44,135 nucleotides of DNA from Blastopirellula marina (GTDB lineage Bacteria > Planctomycetota > Planctomycetia > Pirellulales > Thermoguttaceae): positions 1-44,135 of the forward strand of contig DYLS01000014.1 in assembly GCA_020721965.1 (NCBI GenBank), given 5' to 3'. Every line of letters starts with the position of its first letter. The stretch's first letter is position 1. The notes below the pieces were generated by a model, which worked only from the letters and a program-made list of their open reading frames with translations, had not been told where the DNA came from and made no database searches. Both the position numbers and the translations under genes were made by a program. This document shows positions 4,649 through 22,941 of this stretch, piece after piece.

Positions 4649-4963
4649 ATGCTTCGGAATACCCCCGAGCCGCAATTGTCGGGCCTGGAACCTCATCAGG
4701 TGATCTTGCGCCCGCTGATCTCCGAGAAAAGCGTTCACAAAGCCGAACGATTGAATCAATATGCGTTCGAGGTCAATCTTCTCGCAAACAAAGCTGACGT
4801 GCGCAGGGCCGTTGAGGAGCTGTTTGACGTGAAGGTTGTTCATGTGAATATCCAAAACCGGCGAGGTAAAGTTCGTCGTATCCGGATGCGCAGCGGTGTT
4901 ACTCGGCGGTGGAAAAAGGCAATTGTTACGCTGGATAGTGAATACCGGATCAATTTATTCTAG
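4649..4963 (+). CDS. rplW: 50S ribosomal protein L23
   Basis: 104 residues. L23 lies at the tunnel exit and is the docking site for trigger factor and SRP. The family pattern is visible as VILRPLISEKSV, then YAFEVNLLANKADVRRAVEELFDVKVVHVNI and a basic segment RRGKVRRIRMR, ending in a short beta strand. It starts two bases after rplD and is followed 97 bases later by rplB. Confidence 0.95.
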   Translation: MLRNTPEPQLSGLEPHQVILRPLISEKSVHKAERLNQYAFEVNLLANKADVRRAVEELFDVKVVHVNIQNRRGKVRRIRMRSGVTRRWKKAIVTLDSEYRINLF

Positions 4964-5059
4964 CGGAGTTTGGCAACGCCCCGCACCGCAAGGATCACAG
5001 GAAGCCCGTTCTGAATTCCCCACAGGTGTCCCTTATAGATTCTAGCCAGGCCGACGACG

Positions 5060-5917
5060 ATGGGTCTCAAGTATTATAAACCAACATCACCGGGCCGACG
5101 GAGTGCTTCCGTTTCGGATTTTGCCGACATAACCCGCGGCGTGGAACCTGAAAAGAGCCTCTTGGTCCCGGCGAGGAAGACAGGCGGCCGGAATAGTCAA
5201 GGGGTCATTACCTGTCGGCATCGTGGTGGCGGGCACAAGCGCATGTACCGTCTGATCGACTTCCGTAGAAACAAGGATTCGATCCCGGCTCGCGTTGTGT
5301 CCATTGAATACGATCCGAATCGAAGCGCTAGAATCGCGCTTTTGGTGTATCGCGATGGTGACAAGCGTTATATCATCGCGCCGCAAGGGCTCCGTGTAAA
5401 TGACGTCGTCGAGAGTGGTCCTGAAGCGCCGGCCAAGGTAGGCAATTGCTTGCCTCTGTCGAATATTCCCCTTGGTTTGCAAATCCACAACATCGAGTTG
5501 CAGCCTGGCCGCGGCGGCGCGCTTTGCCGATCCGCCGGTTGTGCCGCGACGCTTGCCGCGAGAGATGCGGATTGGGCGCAATTGATCATGCCGAGCGGAG
5601 AGATTCGACGTGTGCCCGCCAAATGTCGTGCGACGATCGGCGCGGTGAGCAATCCCGATCACGAGAGTGTTCGGCTTGGCAAGGCTGGCCGGCGCCGTTG
5701 GATGGGCCGCAAACCGCATGTCCGCGGCACTGCCATGAACCCTATCGATCATCCTTTGGGCGGTGGAGAGGGACGCACCAAGGGCGGCCGTCATCCTTGC
5801 AGCCCAACCGGCAAGCCGGCGAAGGGGGGGTACACTCGCAAACGCGGAAAGGCTTCGAACAAGGCCATCGTTCGCCGACGGAAGTCGCGCCGCTATGGAC
5901 AGTTGCCTGTTCGTTGA
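5060..5917 (+). CDS. rplB: 50S ribosomal protein L2
   Basis: 285 residues. L2 is a primary 23S rRNA binder near the peptidyl-transferase centre. Typical segments are [19 protein letters not shown] near the N-terminus, [14 protein letters not shown] in the OB domain, and [17 protein letters not shown] near the C-terminus. The first histidine of the DHPHGGGEG loop, which I take to be the functionally important one, is kept; the second is replaced by Leu. The SPWG found after it in many bacteria reads SPTG here. The C-terminal tail is basic ([15 protein letters not shown]). Confidence 0.96.
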
Positions 5918-6027
5918 TGGTGAACTTGCAATTCTTGGTTTTCGGGAGTATCGGATCTCACCGGCCGAGACATGGCTTGGGAACTGAGGTAATTCATATT
6001 TCTCGCGAATAAGGCTGCGTTCCAGTC

Positions 6028-6297
6028 ATGGGTCGATCCATTAAAAAAGGTCCCTTCGTGGATGCCAAGCTCTTCTCGAAAGTCGAGAAGCTCAACGCGA
6101 CGGCACGCAAAGAACCGGTCAAGACGTGGGCCAGGGCGTGCATGATCGTGCCGGAGTTCGTTGGTCACACATTCATGGTGCATAACGGAAAGATGCACGT
6201 GAAGGTGTTCGTGACTGAGGAGATGGTGGGGCACCGGTTGGGCGAGTTTGCCCCGACCCGCGTGTTCCGCGGACACGGTGGAAAGGGTAAACGTTAA
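6028..6297 (+). CDS. rpsS: 30S ribosomal protein S19
   Basis: 89 residues, usual length. S19 sits in the 30S head and contacts S13 and the A-site side. The N-terminus [12 protein letters not shown] and the central [22 protein letters not shown] segment, followed by [11 protein letters not shown], are diagnostic. It lies between rplB and rplV as in most S10 operons. Confidence 0.96.
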
Positions 6298-6370
6298 CCC
6301 CGCGGCGTCTCATTGCGGAACGCCTTGAGAACAGCCGTTTGAATTCGGACATCGGGTGTTGGTGCGCGAC

Positions 6371-6721
6371 ATGGTTCAATTCGATCGTTCATATCGAGCT
6401 ATTCATCGCTATGCCCGGGTCAGTCCGCGCAAGGCACGAAGGATTATCGACACCGTGCGAGGCCGCCAAGTGGATGAGGCGCTGGCTGTACTGAAACGGC
6501 TGCCTCATCGCCCGGCGAGAATGATTGAGAAGGTCATCGCTAGTGCTCTCGCAAACGCTCAAGATCGACAGGATATCGATCCCTCCGAGCTGCATGTGGC
6601 GGTCGCGACCGTCGACGAAGGGCCTCGCATCAAGCGGCTGCGTCCCATTAGCCGAGGCATGGCCTCCATTATTCAAAAGCGAATGTCGCACATAACTATC
6701 GTTTTACGACCGTATGAATAG
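6371..6721 (+). CDS. rplV: 50S ribosomal protein L22
   Basis: 116 residues from ATG 6371. L22 extends a beta hairpin into the exit tunnel. The family pattern YARVSPRKARRIIDTVRGR is followed by ALAVLKRLPHRPARMIEKVIASALANAQ and, in the hairpin, VDEGPRIKRLRPISRGMASIIQKRMSHITIVL. Earlier in-frame GTG codons at 6356 and 6362 are possible starts; the ATG matches the family start better, though no strong ribosome site distinguishes them. Confidence 0.93.
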   Translation: MVQFDRSYRAIHRYARVSPRKARRIIDTVRGRQVDEALAVLKRLPHRPARMIEKVIASALANAQDRQDIDPSELHVAVATVDEGPRIKRLRPISRGMASIIQKRMSHITIVLRPYE

Positions 6722-6817: not shown

Positions 6818-7555
6818 ATGGGTCAAAAGGTAAACCCGATCGGTTTTCGTACAGGTGTCACCCTCGGCTGGAAAAGTCGATGGTATGCGCCGAAGCGAGA
6901 GTTCTCCGATTTGCTGCTGGAAGATCATAAGATTCGACAATTCATTCTCAAACGCCGTGAAGCCTCGTCGGAACGGGATCGTGGCAGGGAGCGCCGCATG
7001 TATCCGATGATCTCAAAGATCGAGATCGAGCGGACGCGGGACGAGGTCAAGGTCATCATATTCACGGCAAGGCCAGGCGTTTTGATCGGATCGCGAGGGG
7101 GCAAAATCGAGGAACTACAGCATGAGCTGCAGGCTTTGACGGGGCGGCGGATCAATCCGAAGATCGAGGAAATTACTCGGCCGGAACTTGTGGCTCAATT
7201 GGTCGCGGAAAGCATCGCTGAAGAATTGATGCGGCGATCCAGCTTTCGTCGGACCATCAAGAAGGCCATGGAGGCGACCATGGCCCAGGGTGCTAAAGGG
7301 ATGAAGGTGCAGTTGTCCGGTCGGCTCGGCGGCGCGGAGATGTCGCGGCGCGAAAAGCAAATGGTCGGCTCGGTACCTTTATCAACGCTGCGAGCCGACG
7401 TGGACTACGGCTTCGCAGAGGCCACCATCGCCCAGGGGCAAATCGGCGTACAAGTGTGGATTAACCGAGGATTGTTCAGCGAGGACAACGACAATGGCGC
7501 TGATGCCAAAACGGGTCAAGCATCGAAAAAGTCAAAGAGGACGTATAAGGGGTGA
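6818..7555 (+). CDS. rpsC: 30S ribosomal protein S3
   Basis: 245 residues. S3 lies at the mRNA entry channel and helps unwind mRNA structure. It begins MGQKVNPIGFRTG and has a type-II KH domain with the GxxG loop GSRG at residues 91-94, followed by the C-terminal RNA-binding domain (QLSGRLGGAEMSRREK). The tail from about residue 225 (NDNGADAKTG, basic residues after) is low-complexity. Its last 62 bases overlap the start of rplP in another frame, far more than the few bases usual in this operon. Confidence 0.95.
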   Translation: MGQKVNPIGFRTGVTLGWKSRWYAPKREFSDLLLEDHKIRQFILKRREASSERDRGRERRMYPMISKIEIERTRDEVKVIIFTARPGVLIGSRGGKIEELQHELQALTGRRINPKIEEITRPELVAQLVAESIAEELMRRSSFRRTIKKAMEATMAQGAKGMKVQLSGRLGGAEMSRREKQMVGSVPLSTLRADVDYGFAEATIAQGQIGVQVWINRGLFSEDNDNGADAKTGQASKKSKRTYKG

Positions 7556-7910
7556 AGCTACCCGCGGCAATCGCGTCGTCTTTGGCGAGTTCGGTTTGAG
7601 GGCGCTACAAGGTGGCTGGATCCCTGCGGCAACCATCGAGGCGGGGCGTATTGCAGCCCAACAATATTTGCGTGCCGAAGGAAGATTGTATATTCGCATT
7701 TTCCCGCACAAGCCCATCACATCCATTCCCCTGGAGACACGTATGGGCAAAGGGAAGGGCGAGCCAGAATATTGGGCGGCCGTGGTCAAACCTGGTACCG
7801 TCCTGTTTGAAGTCGGTGGGATATCGGAAGAGGCGGCCAAGCTCTGCCTTTCGCGACTTGGTCATAAAATGCCGGTAAAAGTTCAGTTCGTACGTCGGCG
7901 AGATATCTGA
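7494..7910 (+). CDS. rplP: 50S ribosomal protein L16
   Basis: 138 residues. L16 binds near the A-site tRNA elbow. The N-terminus MPKRVKHRKSQRGR, the GLRALQGGWIPAATIEAGRIAAQ segment, the loop TRMGKGKGEPEYWAAVVKPGTVLFEV and the end KMPVKVQFV are diagnostic. ATG 7494 (MALMPKRV) and ATG 7503 (MPKRV) are both possible. Either way the conserved N-terminus lies inside the 3' end of rpsC, so these bases code for two proteins. Confidence 0.95.
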   Translation: MALMPKRVKHRKSQRGRIRGEATRGNRVVFGEFGLRALQGGWIPAATIEAGRIAAQQYLRAEGRLYIRIFPHKPITSIPLETRMGKGKGEPEYWAAVVKPGTVLFEVGGISEEAAKLCLSRLGHKMPVKVQFVRRRDI

Positions 7911-7985: not shown

Positions 7986-8183
7986 ATGAAAGCGAAAGAA
8001 CTTCGAGAGATGAGCACGGAGCAATTGCAGGCCACGCTGCGGGAAACCGTGGATTTGCTATTTCGCCTCCGGATTCAGCAACAGACCGAACGACTTGCCA
8101 ATCCGCGTGAGATGGGCAACAAACGCCGCCTCATAGCTCGAATCCGTACTATCTTGCGAGAACGGGATGTAATCCCCGCGTGA
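7986..8183 (+). CDS. rpmC: 50S ribosomal protein L29
   Basis: 65 residues, usual for L29, a small two-helix protein beside L23 at the tunnel exit. MKAKELREMSTEQL at the start, LFRLRIQQQTERLANPREM in the middle and IARIRTILRER at the end match the family. It lies between rplP and rpsQ in standard order. Confidence 0.94.
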   Translation: MKAKELREMSTEQLQATLRETVDLLFRLRIQQQTERLANPREMGNKRRLIARIRTILRERDVIPA

Positions 8184-8283
8184 CGCGTTGACTCCAAAGC
8201 ACTGCTGTATCGTTAGAATACAAACAGTTGTAGCTTGCCTCGAGCGATGGATTGAAACTAAATCGCGAACGTAGGAATAAGCA

Positions 8284-8652
8284 ATGGCAAAACGGGTTGA
8301 GGTCGGTATCGTAACGAAGGCTGGCAAGCCGCAGTTTCGTCGGGTCGAAGTCATCCGCATGATGCCTCATGGCCGCTATGGAAAGTACATACGGCATCGG
8401 ACGATTTGCTACGCCCACGACGAGAATGATGAGACTGGTGTTGGTGATCGCGTGGAGATTGCCGAATCGCGCCCTTTGTCACGATTGAAGCGGTGGCGTG
8501 TGGTACGAGTCCTGGAGAAAGCCCGTGTCATCGACCGCCGCATCACAAAAGGTCGTGAGGCGGAGGAAGAATTCCAGGCTGTCTCCGGTGGCCGGGATAT
8601 TCAGGATGAGGCATCGATGCAAGAGGGCAATGGCACGCAATCAGGTTCCTAG
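8284..8652 (+). CDS. rpsQ: 30S ribosomal protein S17 with C-terminal extension
   Basis: 122 residues, against about 80-90 for most bacterial S17. The OB-fold core covers residues 1 to about 84: VGIVTKAGKPQFRRVEVIR, the YGKYIRHRTICYAHDE loop, the GVGDRVEIAESRPLSRLKRWRVVRVLEKA strand region. The remaining 35 or so residues are acidic and polar (EAEEEFQAVSGG and onward) and look disordered. S17 is a primary 16S rRNA binder, so the tail probably projects outward. An extension here is a lineage feature rather than a frameshift, because core and tail are in one frame with no break. Confidence 0.93.
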   Translation: MAKRVEVGIVTKAGKPQFRRVEVIRMMPHGRYGKYIRHRTICYAHDENDETGVGDRVEIAESRPLSRLKRWRVVRVLEKARVIDRRITKGREAEEEFQAVSGGRDIQDEASMQEGNGTQSGS

Positions 8653-8727
8653 CTGCACCTATTGTAGTTGCAGGAGCGGTGTGTTTGCGACGCACGAATC
8701 CACCGGCATGTAGGTTAGGTAACTGCC

Positions 8728-9096
8728 ATGATTCAAATGCAGACGAAGCTGGACGTAGCAGATAATAGCGGTGTACGCGAGTTGATGTGCATCAAGGTTC
8801 TCGGCGGTAGCCGAAAGCGCTACGCTGGCCTGGGTGACATTGTGGTCTGTAGCGTTAAGGGAACGATCGCTGGCAGCAGCTTCAAAAAAGGCGCCGTGGT
8901 GCGTGCTGTGATCGTGCGTACGCGGAAGGCGAAGCGCCGTTCGGATGGCAGCTATGTACGCTTCGATAGCAATGCGGCTGTAATCGTAGACAATGACGGA
9001 AACCCACGCGGGACGCGGATCTTTGGAGCGGTGGCACGCGAACTGCGGGATCGGAACTTCATGAAAATCGTCAGCCTCGCAAACGAGGTGGTCTGA
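8728..9096 (+). CDS. rplN: 50S ribosomal protein L14
   Basis: 122 residues. L14 forms part of the subunit interface (bridges B5 and B8). [28 protein letters not shown] at the start, the [15 protein letters not shown] segment, and [27 protein letters not shown] at the end match the family throughout. Its TGA stop overlaps the ATG of rplX by one base (position 9096), implying coupled translation. Confidence 0.97.
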
Positions 9097-9446
9097 TGCA
9101 GGTACGTATCAACGACATGGTAGAGGTGTTGGCCGGCGAGGACCGCGGCGTTCGCGGGCGGGTGTTGTCCGTGGATCGCACGGTTGGGAAAGTCGTGGTC
9201 GAGTCGGTCAACGTGGTCGTGAAACACATGCGGCCGACACGGCAGGCAAAGCAGGGGGGGCGGCTCTCGCGCGAAATGCCCATCGACATTTCGAATGTGG
9301 CGTTGGTTTGCCCAGCCTGCGGTGCGCGAACACGGTGCGGTGCACGTTATTTGGATGACGGCACCAAAGTCCGGTTCTGCAAGAAGTGCAATGCCAATAT
9401 CGGTCCGATCGCGCCGGCTCGCGCTCGTTATGCCAAGAAATCCTGA
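9096..9446 (+). CDS. rplX: 50S ribosomal protein L24, zinc-ribbon form
   Basis: 116 residues. L24 is an early assembly protein of the 50S. The KOW domain is at the N-terminus (VEVLAGEDRGVRGRVLSV). The C-terminal part carries C72-x2-C75 and C95-x2-C98, a zinc-binding pair as I recall from Thermus L24; most Proteobacteria have replaced these cysteines. It starts inside the rplN stop codon and is followed 14 bases after its end by rplE. Confidence 0.95.
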   Translation: MQVRINDMVEVLAGEDRGVRGRVLSVDRTVGKVVVESVNVVVKHMRPTRQAKQGGRLSREMPIDISNVALVCPACGARTRCGARYLDDGTKVRFCKKCNANIGPIAPARARYAKKS

Positions 9447-19195: not shown

Positions 19196-19918
19196 ATGCG
19201 ACACCGGAGATTAGGCCGTACATTGGGGCGCAGTCCGAGCCATCGGAAGGGGCTGTTGAGGAATCTAGCCAGCGCATTGTTCCTTACGGAAAAAGAGTAT
19301 CTATTCGAACGCGAGAAGCCAATCTATCCCGGTCAGATCGTCACGACTCTTCCCAAGGCGAAAGAGGTTCGCCCACTGATCGAGCGTTGTATCACGATCG
19401 CCAAAAAGGCCTTACCAGCATTGCAGGAGGCGAAGGCCCTGGAACCGACCGCGCCGCGTAATTCCGAGGCGTGGCGGGCGTGGCGTGATAGTGAGCGATG
19501 GTACGAGTGGAACCAGAAAATGGCCCCCGTCGTGGCCGCCCGACGGCGAGTGTTGCGCTTAATCGGAAGCAAAGAGGCGACTCAAATATTATTTGAGCGA
19601 ATCGCCCCCCGATTCGCGGATCGTCCTGGCGGTTATACGCGGATTCTTCGCTTGGCGAAGCCCCGTGTGGGAGACGCCGGGACGCGAGCCATTTTGGCTT
19701 TCGCCGATGGCATGACGCGACGGAAGAAGAAGCGGCGGGACGCGGCCGTCAAACCGGAGTTTACCACGCAACCGGAATTTACCAGCCAAGAGGCCATTTC
19801 TTCGCCGGCAACACCTCCTGTTTCTGAATCCTCTGTTTCCGGACCGCGTGCTGCCGAACCCTCTGTCCCCAAGGCCACAGTTGAGGAGGGCAATGTATCG
19901 GGTGATCAGCAACAATAG
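19196..19918 (+). CDS. rplQ: 50S ribosomal protein L17 with internal insert and C-terminal tail
   Basis: 240 residues, about twice the 115-130 of most bacterial L17. The conserved parts are MRHRRLGRTLGRSPSHRKGLLRNLASAL, TTLPKAKEVRPLIERCITIAKK, RRRVLRLIGSKEATQILFERIAPRFADRPGGYTRIL and GDAGTRAILAF. Between about residues 72 and 114 there is an extra segment rich in Trp, Arg and Glu. After about residue 173 comes a Lys/Arg patch followed by about 60 residues rich in Ser, Pro, Glu and Thr, probably disordered. A smaller insert lies near residues 34-47. The reading frame is continuous, so these are genuine additions. L17 sits near the tunnel exit. It is the last gene of the cluster, followed by a terminator. 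Confidence 0.94.
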   Translation: MRHRRLGRTLGRSPSHRKGLLRNLASALFLTEKEYLFEREKPIYPGQIVTTLPKAKEVRPLIERCITIAKKALPALQEAKALEPTAPRNSEAWRAWRDSERWYEWNQKMAPVVAARRRVLRLIGSKEATQILFERIAPRFADRPGGYTRILRLAKPRVGDAGTRAILAFADGMTRRKKKRRDAAVKPEFTTQPEFTSQEAISSPATPPVSESSVSGPRAAEPSVPKATVEEGNVSGDQQQ

Positions 19919-20263: not shown

Positions 20264-21388
20264 ATGAACGAACACAAGCGTCTAGCTGAACATTTCCAGA
20301 GTTATCGCAGGGAAGACATCGCGACCAGCCCGCTGATGCTGTATTTCGAAGTCACGCAGGCGTGCGATCTGGTTTGTAAGCACTGCCGAGCCTCGGCGCA
20401 ACCGGAGAGCCATCCCTTAGAGTTGGACACAGACAACGCGATCGCCTTGCTTGAACAAGCCACGGCGTTTCCCCGAAAGCCGAACGTGGTGTTCACAGGT
20501 GGCGATCCGCTCAAGCGCCGCGATATTTGGCGTCTGTTGGAAACGGCAATTCAACTAGGGCTTAATGTTGCGCTCACACCATCAGCCACTCCCCTTGCCA
20601 CCGAACAAGCCTTGCGAAGGGCGAGGGACATCGGAGTCACCGCCCTGGGAGTCAGCCTGGACGGTGCGGATGCGGCGACGCACGATGCCTTTCGCGGTTG
20701 GGATGGGAGTTTTGAGCGAACGCGAGACATCTTGGCCGATGCCCGGGAGCTGGGTTTCTATATCCAGGTCAATACCACGGTAACGCGCCGTAACGTCTTG
20801 CAAATCGATGCCATGGCTGAAATGCTGGCCGGTTACGGCATCGCCATGTGGTCGGTGTTTTTCCTAGTCCCCGTCGGCAGGGGCCAAACCGAAGAACGAA
20901 TCTCGGATAGCGAGTACGAAAAGGTCTTCGCGATCCTCTGGAAACAATCGCTGCGACAGCCGTTCGCCATCAAAACCACGGAGGCGCCGCATTACCGCCG
21001 TTTTGTGCTACGACATATCGCAGACAAGCCCGGATCGGCCGACCAACGTAAGATTCGGTCCATGATCGGCGTGGGAGACGGGAAGGGAATCATGTTCGTC
21101 AGCCATATCGGCGACATCTATCCAGCAGGCTTCCTTCCGGTCTATTGTGGAACGTTTCCCCGGGTCTCCATCGTTGATGTGTATCAACACCATCCCGTTT
21201 TTTTGGCCTTACGGCAGCCCGATCGGCTCCGCGGGAAGTGCGGGACGTGCGCCTACCGATACGTCTGTGGTGGCAGCCGTTCGCGAGCTTACGCAGTGAC
21301 CGGCGATTATTTAGAGTCGGAGCCTGACTGCGCTTATGTTTCCGAACCGGGTGCTGAACTTGTCTTGCCGGATTCCCTGCGCGTTTGA
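20264..21388 (+). CDS. Radical SAM/SPASM domain protein
   Basis: 374 residues. The radical SAM cluster motif C34-x3-C38-x2-C41 and the GGDP SAM-binding loop (79-82) are intact. The C-terminal SPASM-type region keeps C326-x2-C329-x5-C335 and C356, enough for an auxiliary iron-sulfur cluster. The pattern CGTCAYRYVCGGSRSRAYAVTGDYL, together with PLMLYFEVTQACDLVCKHCRA at the start, resembles the family containing the haem-modifying NirJ and AhbD enzymes and a related uncharacterised group (TIGR04053, from memory). Substrate unknown. No precursor peptide or haem gene lies nearby. The next co-directional gene is the degenerate ketosynthase 287 bases on. Confidence 0.85.
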   Translation: MNEHKRLAEHFQSYRREDIATSPLMLYFEVTQACDLVCKHCRASAQPESHPLELDTDNAIALLEQATAFPRKPNVVFTGGDPLKRRDIWRLLETAIQLGLNVALTPSATPLATEQALRRARDIGVTALGVSLDGADAATHDAFRGWDGSFERTRDILADARELGFYIQVNTTVTRRNVLQIDAMAEMLAGYGIAMWSVFFLVPVGRGQTEERISDSEYEKVFAILWKQSLRQPFAIKTTEAPHYRRFVLRHIADKPGSADQRKIRSMIGVGDGKGIMFVSHIGDIYPAGFLPVYCGTFPRVSIVDVYQHHPVFLALRQPDRLRGKCGTCAYRYVCGGSRSRAYAVTGDYLESEPDCAYVSEPGAELVLPDSLRV

Positions 21389-21675: not shown

Positions 21676-22941
21676 ATGGACGCGAACGATCAGGTCGTCA
21701 TTACCGGACTAGGCGTGGTCAGTCCGATCGGGATAGGCTCAGAGGTCTTTTGGCAAAACCTGTTGGAAGGGCAATCCGGCATTCGCTCCATTCCCTTCTT
21801 GAACGGGTGCGAGACCCTGGCCCCGATCGGCGGCTACATCCCCGAGTTTGATGTATCCGATCGCGTCCGCCCGCGGAAGGCTTTGAAGGTCATGAGCCGA
21901 GATATTCAACTCGCCTTCGCGGCCGCCGACCTTGCCGTTCAAGACGCGTGCGTTGGCCGATCCGGCATTGAACCGGAGCGGTTGGGTGTGGTGTTCGGGA
22001 CGGACCTCATCCCTTGCGAATTGCACGAGATCGCCCCCGCCATTCGCGGCTGTATCGAACACGGTCGGTTCGATTTCAGCCGTTGGGGCACTCGAGCCAT
22101 GTCCGACCTGTACCCCCTCTGGCTTCTGAAGTATCTCCCCAACATGCCTGCCTCTCACATTGGAATCGCTTTCGATGCACGCGGCCCCAACAACACGTTA
22201 ACGCTGGGAGAGATTTCCGGGCTGGGTTCCATCGCGGAAGCGGTCCGAGTCATCGAGCGGGGACACGCCGACGCCATGATATGCGGCGGCACGGGATGCC
22301 GCATTCATCCGGCCTTTCATGCGCGGCAAAGTGCGTACCCACTATCCCGGCGGCGCGACGATCCGACCGCAGCCTGTCGCCCATTCGATGCCGACCGTGA
22401 TGGCATGGTCCACGGCGAGGGAGCCGGCGTCCTCGTTTTGGAGCGCCGGCGCCACGCGGAATCACGCGGCGCTACCATCTACGCTGGGATCGGAGGGTTC
22501 GCCAATACATGCCGTGCAGCAGGCCGCGACGACACACTCCTGAACGAGGCCATCGCACGAGCCATCCGCTCCGCTCTCGGACAAGCGGGTTTGTCCAGCC
22601 GCGAGGTCGGCCATGTGAATGCCCACGGGCTGGGAACCCCTACCGACGATGAGATCGAAGCCAAGGCCATCCGCCAGACGTTAGGCGACGTCCCGGTTAC
22701 GGCTCCGAAAAGCTACTTCGGGTCGCTCGCGGCAGGTTCGGGGGTGGTGGAACTTGCGGTAACGCTCTTGTCCTTCCGGAACGGGCTTGTCCCACCAACA
22801 CTGAATTATCAGCATCCCGATCCCCGCTGTCCGATTCAGGTCATCCACGGTCAGCCACTCAAAGACTCGACGGGCACGGCTGTGGTCCTCAATCACTCGC
22901 CGACTGGCCAAGTAGCGTCACTGGTGGTGACGGCTGGATGA
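21676..22941 (+). CDS. Ketosynthase-fold protein (FabF-like) lacking the catalytic Cys
   Basis: 421 residues from ATG 21676 (MDANDQVVITGLGVVSPIGIG), the usual length and N-terminus of a beta-ketoacyl-ACP synthase. An in-frame TTG at 21655 adds seven residues. The thiolase fold is clear: RPFDADRDGMVHGEGAGVLVLE, VNAHGLGTPTDDEIEAKAI with His317, and Lys345 in APKSYFGS. The catalytic Cys position in the TxTxCxSG-type motif is Glu179 (TLTLGEISGLGSIAEA), the second active-site His is replaced by Ser350, and the GFGG loop near the end is absent (LNHSPTGQ). It should not condense acyl chains in the normal way. It might decarboxylate malonyl groups, act as a chain-length-factor-like partner, or have another role; these are inferences. 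Confidence 0.88.
   Translation: MDANDQVVITGLGVVSPIGIGSEVFWQNLLEGQSGIRSIPFLNGCETLAPIGGYIPEFDVSDRVRPRKALKVMSRDIQLAFAAADLAVQDACVGRSGIEPERLGVVFGTDLIPCELHEIAPAIRGCIEHGRFDFSRWGTRAMSDLYPLWLLKYLPNMPASHIGIAFDARGPNNTLTLGEISGLGSIAEAVRVIERGHADAMICGGTGCRIHPAFHARQSAYPLSRRRDDPTAACRPFDADRDGMVHGEGAGVLVLERRRHAESRGATIYAGIGGFANTCRAAGRDDTLLNEAIARAIRSALGQAGLSSREVGHVNAHGLGTPTDDEIEAKAIRQTLGDVPVTAPKSYFGSLAAGSGVVELAVTLLSFRNGLVPPTLNYQHPDPRCPIQVIHGQPLKDSTGTAVVLNHSPTGQVASLVVTAG

Follow-up and report, generated by a model that had tools for sequence, protein, structure and literature searches.

What can a protein with the fold of a ketosynthase (KS) be doing when it lacks the residues that make such enzymes condense? The question is raised by P0001, a gene at 21676..22941 (+ strand) of a 44,135-nucleotide stretch of DNA from Blastopirellula marina (the window), which makes up positions 1-44135 of contig C217 in a 4.95-Mb draft genome; in a contig search, the nearest named match was a Thermogutta metagenome-assembled genome (77% identity). 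The open reading frame (ORF) is intact and encodes 421 amino acids, and the ORF, Pfam matches, alignment and predicted structure together describe a ketosynthase fold without the Cys-His-His triad. In our judgment, P0001 is probably a non-condensing KS-beta subunit, similar to a chain-length factor (CLF), of a planctomycete type II synthase of the fatty-acid or polyketide kind. The role of partner subunit is favored because, in other lineages, members of its family (hereafter beta) are paired in tandem with an intact ketosynthase (alpha), because the two co-occur across genomes, and because residues for catalysis and for docking of the acyl carrier protein (ACP) are split between them.

Pfam matches both ketosynthase halves in P0001 (121.9 and 78.5 bits), and the NCBIfam equivalog model for FabF matches nearly end to end, at 284.1 bits, which is below its cut-off of 493.75. 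The predicted structure (pLDDT 92.6, pTM 0.92) superposes on FabF structures over ~400 residues, with a TM score of 0.90 to 1e5m, and thus has the thiolase-type ketosynthase fold. It fits FabF (best Z 59.8) and the actinorhodin CLF (1tqy_B; Z 58.8, root-mean-square deviation 1.7 over 396 residues) about equally well. The Cys-His-His of FabF (KAS II) is not there. When aligned with canonical ketosynthases, P0001 has Glu at the catalytic Cys position (codon 179, 22210..22212), keeps the first catalytic His (codon 317, 22624..22626) and the Lys (codon 345, 22708..22710), has Ser in place of the second His (codon 350, 22723..22725; Asn is the family norm), and carries LNHSPTGQ where the GFGG loop would be (codons 405-412, 22888..22911). 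Judged from the sequence, no other Cys occupies the nucleophile place. The initial annotation, made from the letters alone, had described a protein with the fold and length of FabF, these two substitutions, a missing GFGG loop, and retained His317 and Lys345, and alignment and model bear it out on each of these points.

The gene is under purifying selection, both against the 77%-identical relative (ratio of nonsynonymous to synonymous substitution rates, dN/dS, 0.088, at a dS of 1.86 that is near saturation) and between two congeners (dN/dS 0.079, dS 0.64). Selection is thus maintaining the protein, and the gene is not in decay. Because, in addition, the class of residue is kept in relatives, the altered active site goes beyond chance.

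How general the substitutions are can be seen from 83 beta rows, counted from rows ungapped at residues 68 and 179 (this sets aside, among others, the two halves of the gene at L010/L037; the partial L136 row was also not counted as beta). In both the beta and alpha sets, exact duplicates were removed and close relatives retained. At the Cys column, Glu occurs in 47 of the 83 rows, Asp in 26, Cys in five and other residues in five; Gln occurs once. Thus the suggestion that a Glu version is rarer than Gln fails inside this family, where an acid is the rule (73/83), and the one Streptomyces CLF that we examined has Glu there too. The first His column is His in 60 rows and has lost it in 23. The second is Asn in 50, His in 22 and Ser in a single row, so that Ser350 is peculiar to the P0001 copy. 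Two members of the family deserve mention in their own right. The L010/L037 gene is broken by one in-frame TAG (decay or an assembly error), and a beta protein in genome G051 (L094 1498-2805, - strand) has Ser at the Cys place with both His residues kept, unlike its relatives.

All 60 nearest relatives searched have a P0001 match at E <= 1e-20, and in 59 the match reaches at least 264 bits, above any alpha match listed in that search (the exception, G014, is 68% complete). In these relatives beta and alpha were assigned by score (at least 264 bits in the P0001 search and at least 500 bits in the alpha search, respectively), and not all of them were placed in the tree. The window genome has five ketosynthases. 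Three are beta, P0001 (Glu/His/Ser at the three catalytic positions) and those on contigs C338 (Glu/Glu/Asn) and C203 (Glu/Asn/Asn), and two are Cys-His-His enzymes, on contigs C237 and C49, both of them near an ACP gene.

The C49 enzyme belongs to the alpha clade, in which Cys-His-His is present in 51 of 51 rows. The main tree was built from 68 rows after removal of the active-site, docking and PLW columns. In it, beta (36 rows) falls on one side of a branch with ultrafast bootstrap (UFBoot)/SH-aLRT support of 100/95, alpha (21 rows) on one side of another (100/97), and the other ketosynthases likewise (100/97). A single change of state at the Cys column, that is, one loss of Cys, accounts for the sampled tree. 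Two quick trees, one of 101 rows and one of 97, are consistent with it. In the 97-row tree, whose rows include a Streptomyces factor and four mycobacterial Asp proteins, the non-Cys state needs three changes. Because beta is still Cys-His-His in family f34, the alpha and beta lines must have parted before Cys was lost. At the f34 loci (L113, L114, L116 and L117), alpha and beta stand in tandem and are both Cys-His-His, apparently the state that preceded the loss. The mycobacterial ketosynthases are a separate observation: at ~5905-7212 of L056, L057, L059 and L065 they have Asp at the Cys place and keep both His residues, and the L056 gene is closely followed, on the other strand, by two mycolic-acid cyclopropane synthase genes.

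Gene order ties beta to alpha outside the class to which the window belongs. Of 28 alpha-bearing genomes there, 23 have beta adjoining alpha, with gaps between the adjoining matches of 12 to 941 bp (<100 bp in 17). Four genomes, all from one genus (f23, g70), have the two apart. The remaining genome, G116, says nothing on adjacency, because its alpha is cut at a contig end and its beta lies on another contig, 500 bp from the start. The arrangement at L122 reads FabA-like, ketoreductase (KR), ACP, FabA-like, beta (Asp-His-His), alpha. Two FabA-like genes precede the beta-alpha pair in L124 and L130, and an ACP gene plus a weak FabA-like match (below the family cut-off) precede it in L132. Contig C49 of the window genome has FabA-like (4821-5660), KR (5869-6654), ACP (6856-7254), FabA-like (7280-7858) and alpha (8033-9316) genes. 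This is the L122 order minus beta, whose expected place ahead of alpha is a gap of 174 bp, and the same order is found on the opposite strand in G002, of the same genus. Thus, in the window genome the beta slot of the operon is empty and three beta genes are dispersed elsewhere. The initial annotation had proposed a search for a partner KS and an ACP, and the C49 ketosynthase, with its nearby ACP gene, is the likely candidate.

The distribution of the two genes was surveyed in 294 genomes of Planctomycetota using an alpha profile search and a DNA pattern for the beta motif PLWxLKxLPNM. Alpha was found in 49 (at least 535 bits, a cut chosen after seeing the gap between that score and the next, 492 bits) and the motif in 51, with no match to a reversed-pattern control. 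The pattern does not match the variant PLSFLKVLPNM carried by the C338 protein. All 49 alpha-bearing genomes carry the beta motif. In the beta-only genome G134, beta is cut by the contig end (the match runs to base 4947 of a 4961-base contig), and in the other, G152, beta lies 25 bases from the contig start, on the side where alpha would follow. Fisher's test gives p = 6e-54, but the genomes are related and the counts are therefore not independent. Among the 60 nearest relatives, alpha was found in 58 (not in G009 and G047) and the motif in 58 (not in G014 and G034, the latter having a 390-bit P0001 homologue). One motif match (G016) sits in a TAG-interrupted gene.

The third line of evidence concerns ACP docking. 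The docking columns were matched within an ungapped stretch by way of FabF-like rows and the known sequence of Escherichia coli FabF, which is outside the alignment, and we take Lys65, Arg68 and Lys69 of that enzyme to be columns 68, 71 and 72 of P0001. In the AcpP-FabF complex these three residues hold ACP, most ACP contacts are made by the monomer that is not crosslinked (not loaded), and the K65E and K65A/K69A changes lower crosslinking to ACP (PMC7138838, covered here in part). In the KS-CLF complex for ishigamide, most of the contact with ACP is made by the CLF (PMC8358021, also covered in part). P0001 has the basic stretch PRKALKVMSR at this place (codons 66-75, 21871..21900). A basic residue stands at both column 68 and column 71 in 83/83 beta rows and 6/7 FabF-like rows, and in 1/51 alpha rows. 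In alpha, column 68 is acidic in 32 of 51 rows; column 71 taken alone is still Lys or Arg in 27, so the loss lies mainly at column 68. A second difference falls in the segment aligned to Pro131-Phe132 of the FabF ACP interface. In beta it reads PLW(L/M)LKYLPNM, a family signature (PLWLLKYLPNM in P0001, codons 147-157, 22114..22146) in which Pro147, Leu148 and Leu154 occur in 83/83 rows and Trp149 in 80/83, and which was not seen in the alpha or FabF-like rows of the segment alignment. In alpha it is mostly ELEQEPNMP, with Glu at column 152 in 45/51 and at column 154 in 48/51.

These results suggest a division of labor. A ketosynthase duplication would have given alpha and beta, the former keeping Cys-His-His and losing the basic docking patch, the latter keeping the patch while its catalytic Cys gave way, in most cases to Glu or Asp, in a single event on the sampled tree. 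Within an alpha-beta dimer, beta would be where ACP docks, and the chain would pass to the Cys of alpha. The docking on beta is proposed because ACP contacts in FabF come mostly from the monomer that is not loaded. The PLWLLKYLPNM segment may shape the acyl pocket of the partner. For P0001 itself, a physical heterodimer with alpha, a docking role, an influence on chain length, and its being the partner rather than C338 or C203 are steps that we infer.

Several observations weigh against this reading, beginning with the fact that the alpha-beta complex is itself inferred. The third docking residue is lost in beta, as column 72 (Lys69 of FabF) is hydrophobic in 82/83 rows (Val/Leu/Ile/Phe), compared with Arg in 7/7 FabF-like rows. 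The docking split is absent from the one Streptomyces KS-CLF pair examined, in which the CLF has no basic residues there, so the split is not general to KS-CLF pairs. Co-occurrence follows phylogeny, and related genomes may simply inherit both genes together. In the search of the 60 relatives, no alpha was found in G009 and G047, which have beta, and no beta in G014 (68% complete), which has alpha. Within the window's class, the genomes read show no linkage of beta with alpha, apart from a second alpha-like gene in G323, so linkage does not decide which beta serves alpha. Finally, 11 of the 60 relatives carry a canonical FabF-like gene ~5 kb or less along the contig from a beta paralogue whose score assigns it to the C203 type (G015, G018, G030, G037, G038, G043, G049, G053, G054, G057 and G059; for G059, where the gene is on the + strand in the P0001 search and the motif on the - strand, distance alone was used), and the distance is only 0.4 and 0.85 kb in L133 and L134.

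This proximity suggests FabF as the partner of the C203 type, and some beta proteins may serve FabF. Extended to P0001, the argument would make it a beta subunit of the housekeeping FabF (contig C237) rather than of alpha, tuning ordinary fatty-acid chain length. We regard this as unlikely, given that the linkage concerns the C203 type (by score in the relatives, and by tree in L133 and L134) and not the clade of P0001, and that FabF-like proteins, whose rows retain the docking pair, would have no need of a helper. The better odds go to alpha, because it is without the pair and its operon is without a beta. Could P0001 instead work with no KS partner at all, as a pseudoenzyme in its own right that forms a homodimer, binds acyl-ACP by its docking patch and senses or buffers acyl chains? 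The retained patch would suit such a role, as would the lack of a conserved operon in the loci compared from its order and of a partner KS beside it in the window. It is nonetheless improbable in view of the paired ancestry, the near-complete co-occurrence with alpha, and the loss of the patch in alpha, which calls for a partner.

The remaining possibilities would have P0001 do chemistry of its own. In KSQ proteins, Gln takes the Cys place and both catalytic His residues are present. With Glu179 in the role of that Gln, and with His317 and Lys345 retained, P0001 might be a malonyl-ACP decarboxylase that supplies acetyl primers. It departs from the KSQ pattern at both Glu179 and Ser350, however, and decarboxylation by FabF uses both His residues (PMC2649909, covered here in part). 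One of these is gone in P0001 and neither is fixed in the family, which makes a decarboxylase very improbable. Alternatively, the acid at 179, which can hardly be random given its frequency and which is followed in most rows by Ser two residues on and then by Ser or Gly, might be the base or nucleophile of a different enzyme. Glu and Asp swap among close relatives, and both His positions and the Lys vary, which is unlike an active site, and we give this idea very little credence. Of the three functions that the initial annotation had offered, the partner subunit is thus favored and the decarboxylase disfavored; the third, an unrelated acyl-binding protein, gets the ancestry wrong, P0001 being a ketosynthase paralogue, although it could still be a plain acyl-ACP binder.

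The partner-subunit reading has parallels in known systems. Like KS-beta/CLF subunits such as that of actinorhodin, planctomycete beta is a ketosynthase paralogue without the catalytic Cys, and in other planctomycete lineages it is encoded with a catalytic KS, ACP, reductase and dehydratases. Unlike the actinorhodin CLF, P0001 is nearer to FabF in sequence (230 bits to 1e5m versus 136 bits to the CLF), and in the window genome beta is unlinked from its partner and present in three copies; unlike in the Streptomyces pair, the docking residues are retained on beta. P0001 resembles FabF in fold, length and the basic residues at the Lys65/Arg68 docking places, and differs in the missing Cys, second His and GFGG and in its score below the FabF equivalog cut-off. 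Gln at the Cys place is usual in CLFs of aromatic type II systems, whereas P0001 has Glu. The Streptomyces CLF used for comparison came from the L058 genome, where it lies at L217 991-3672 (- strand) next to its KS-alpha (L208), and it too has Glu and not Gln. A plasmid search for a CLF gave no recognizable pair in the five regions opened, one of them without annotation. When this single, long-branched Streptomyces CLF is added to the tree it falls outside the planctomycete clade, and a grouping of CLF with beta is not rejected by the approximately unbiased (AU) test (p 0.51), which leaves shared or separate origin with the actinobacterial CLFs undecided. P0001 most likely works like a chain-length factor, whatever its descent.

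A further likeness is to highly reducing type II systems. In those for aryl polyenes (ApeO-ApeC) and ishigamide (Iga11-Iga12), a KS-CLF heterodimer works with a reductase and dehydratases on ACP, according to the part of PMC8358021 covered. The planctomycete operon, known here from its genes alone, holds the same kinds of genes; a difference is that its beta is full length. That Asp or Glu stands at the Cys position in Rhodopirellula has been known since 2009. The Rhodopirellula baltica FabF paralogues NP_865682 and NP_866153 have Asp or Glu at Cys163, from which a different substrate and function were inferred, and related Kuenenia paralogues were proposed to recruit products from outside type II fatty acid synthesis (Rattray et al. 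2009, PMC2649909). His298, Lys328 and Asn333 of NP_866153 are the commonest residues of the beta family, a likeness by residues and not by placement in the tree. The parts of that paper covered do not describe an alpha partner, a docking split or dispersal, and we found no description of planctomycete alpha-beta pairing, dispersal or the docking split in the open-access literature searched. A 2023 catalogue, as far as covered here, lists KS-CLF pairs in 14 phyla including Planctomycetes (PMC10132072) and requires both genes within 2 kb, so it would miss dispersed beta genes.

The surroundings of P0001 add little to this. Upstream lie a ribosomal protein-rpoA-rplQ run and then a radical SAM/SPASM gene; downstream, on the opposite strand, are a GATase1-like gene and a major facilitator superfamily (MFS) transporter. 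No ACP, ketoreductase or second ketosynthase was found among the window proteins scanned, and genome-wide searches placed no ACP or other ketosynthase on the P0001 contig, so that neither in the window nor in the genome is there a catalytic KS gene beside it. In a comparison of 17 loci (16 contigs from genomes plus a stretch of G002, many spanning just ~1.5 kb on each side of the gene), no neighbor is conserved beyond the closest relative. The radical SAM, GATase-like and MFS genes are common to the 77%-identical relative only, whose named record (L035) also has an rplQ match at its contig end. Families recurring near P0001 homologues are GNAT-like (5/17 loci; Pfam confirms four of the five members, the scan of the fifth not being on the right strand), GTPase (4/17; four of four confirmed) and desaturase (3/17; three of three). 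Neighboring genes were therefore rejected as a functional clue, including a tie to the upstream radical SAM protein (window 20264-21388, above the TIGR04053 cut-off), which was considered and dropped. Scans for promoters and terminators gave nothing clearly over shuffled sequence. As a separate matter, the ribosomal protein L17 encoded at 19196-19918 has 240 amino acids, roughly double the 112-position family model, and contains an internal insert as well as a long tail of low complexity.

A wider picture, which we hold only tentatively and would call doubtful as it stands, is that part of the Planctomycetota uses a split ketosynthase whose helper arose independently of actinobacterial CLFs, and that a single alpha in the window's class works with several unlinked betas (P0001, C338 and C203), a swap of which resets chain length or the choice of ACP. 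The partner-subunit reading itself, if right, would raise the acyl product of a second planctomycete synthase as a new question, and it predicts that alpha depends on beta for the docking of ACP. It would explain the 2009 puzzle of planctomycete "FabF" paralogues without Cys and name their partner, and it would mean that subunits of the chain-length-factor kind can scatter through a genome and increase in number.
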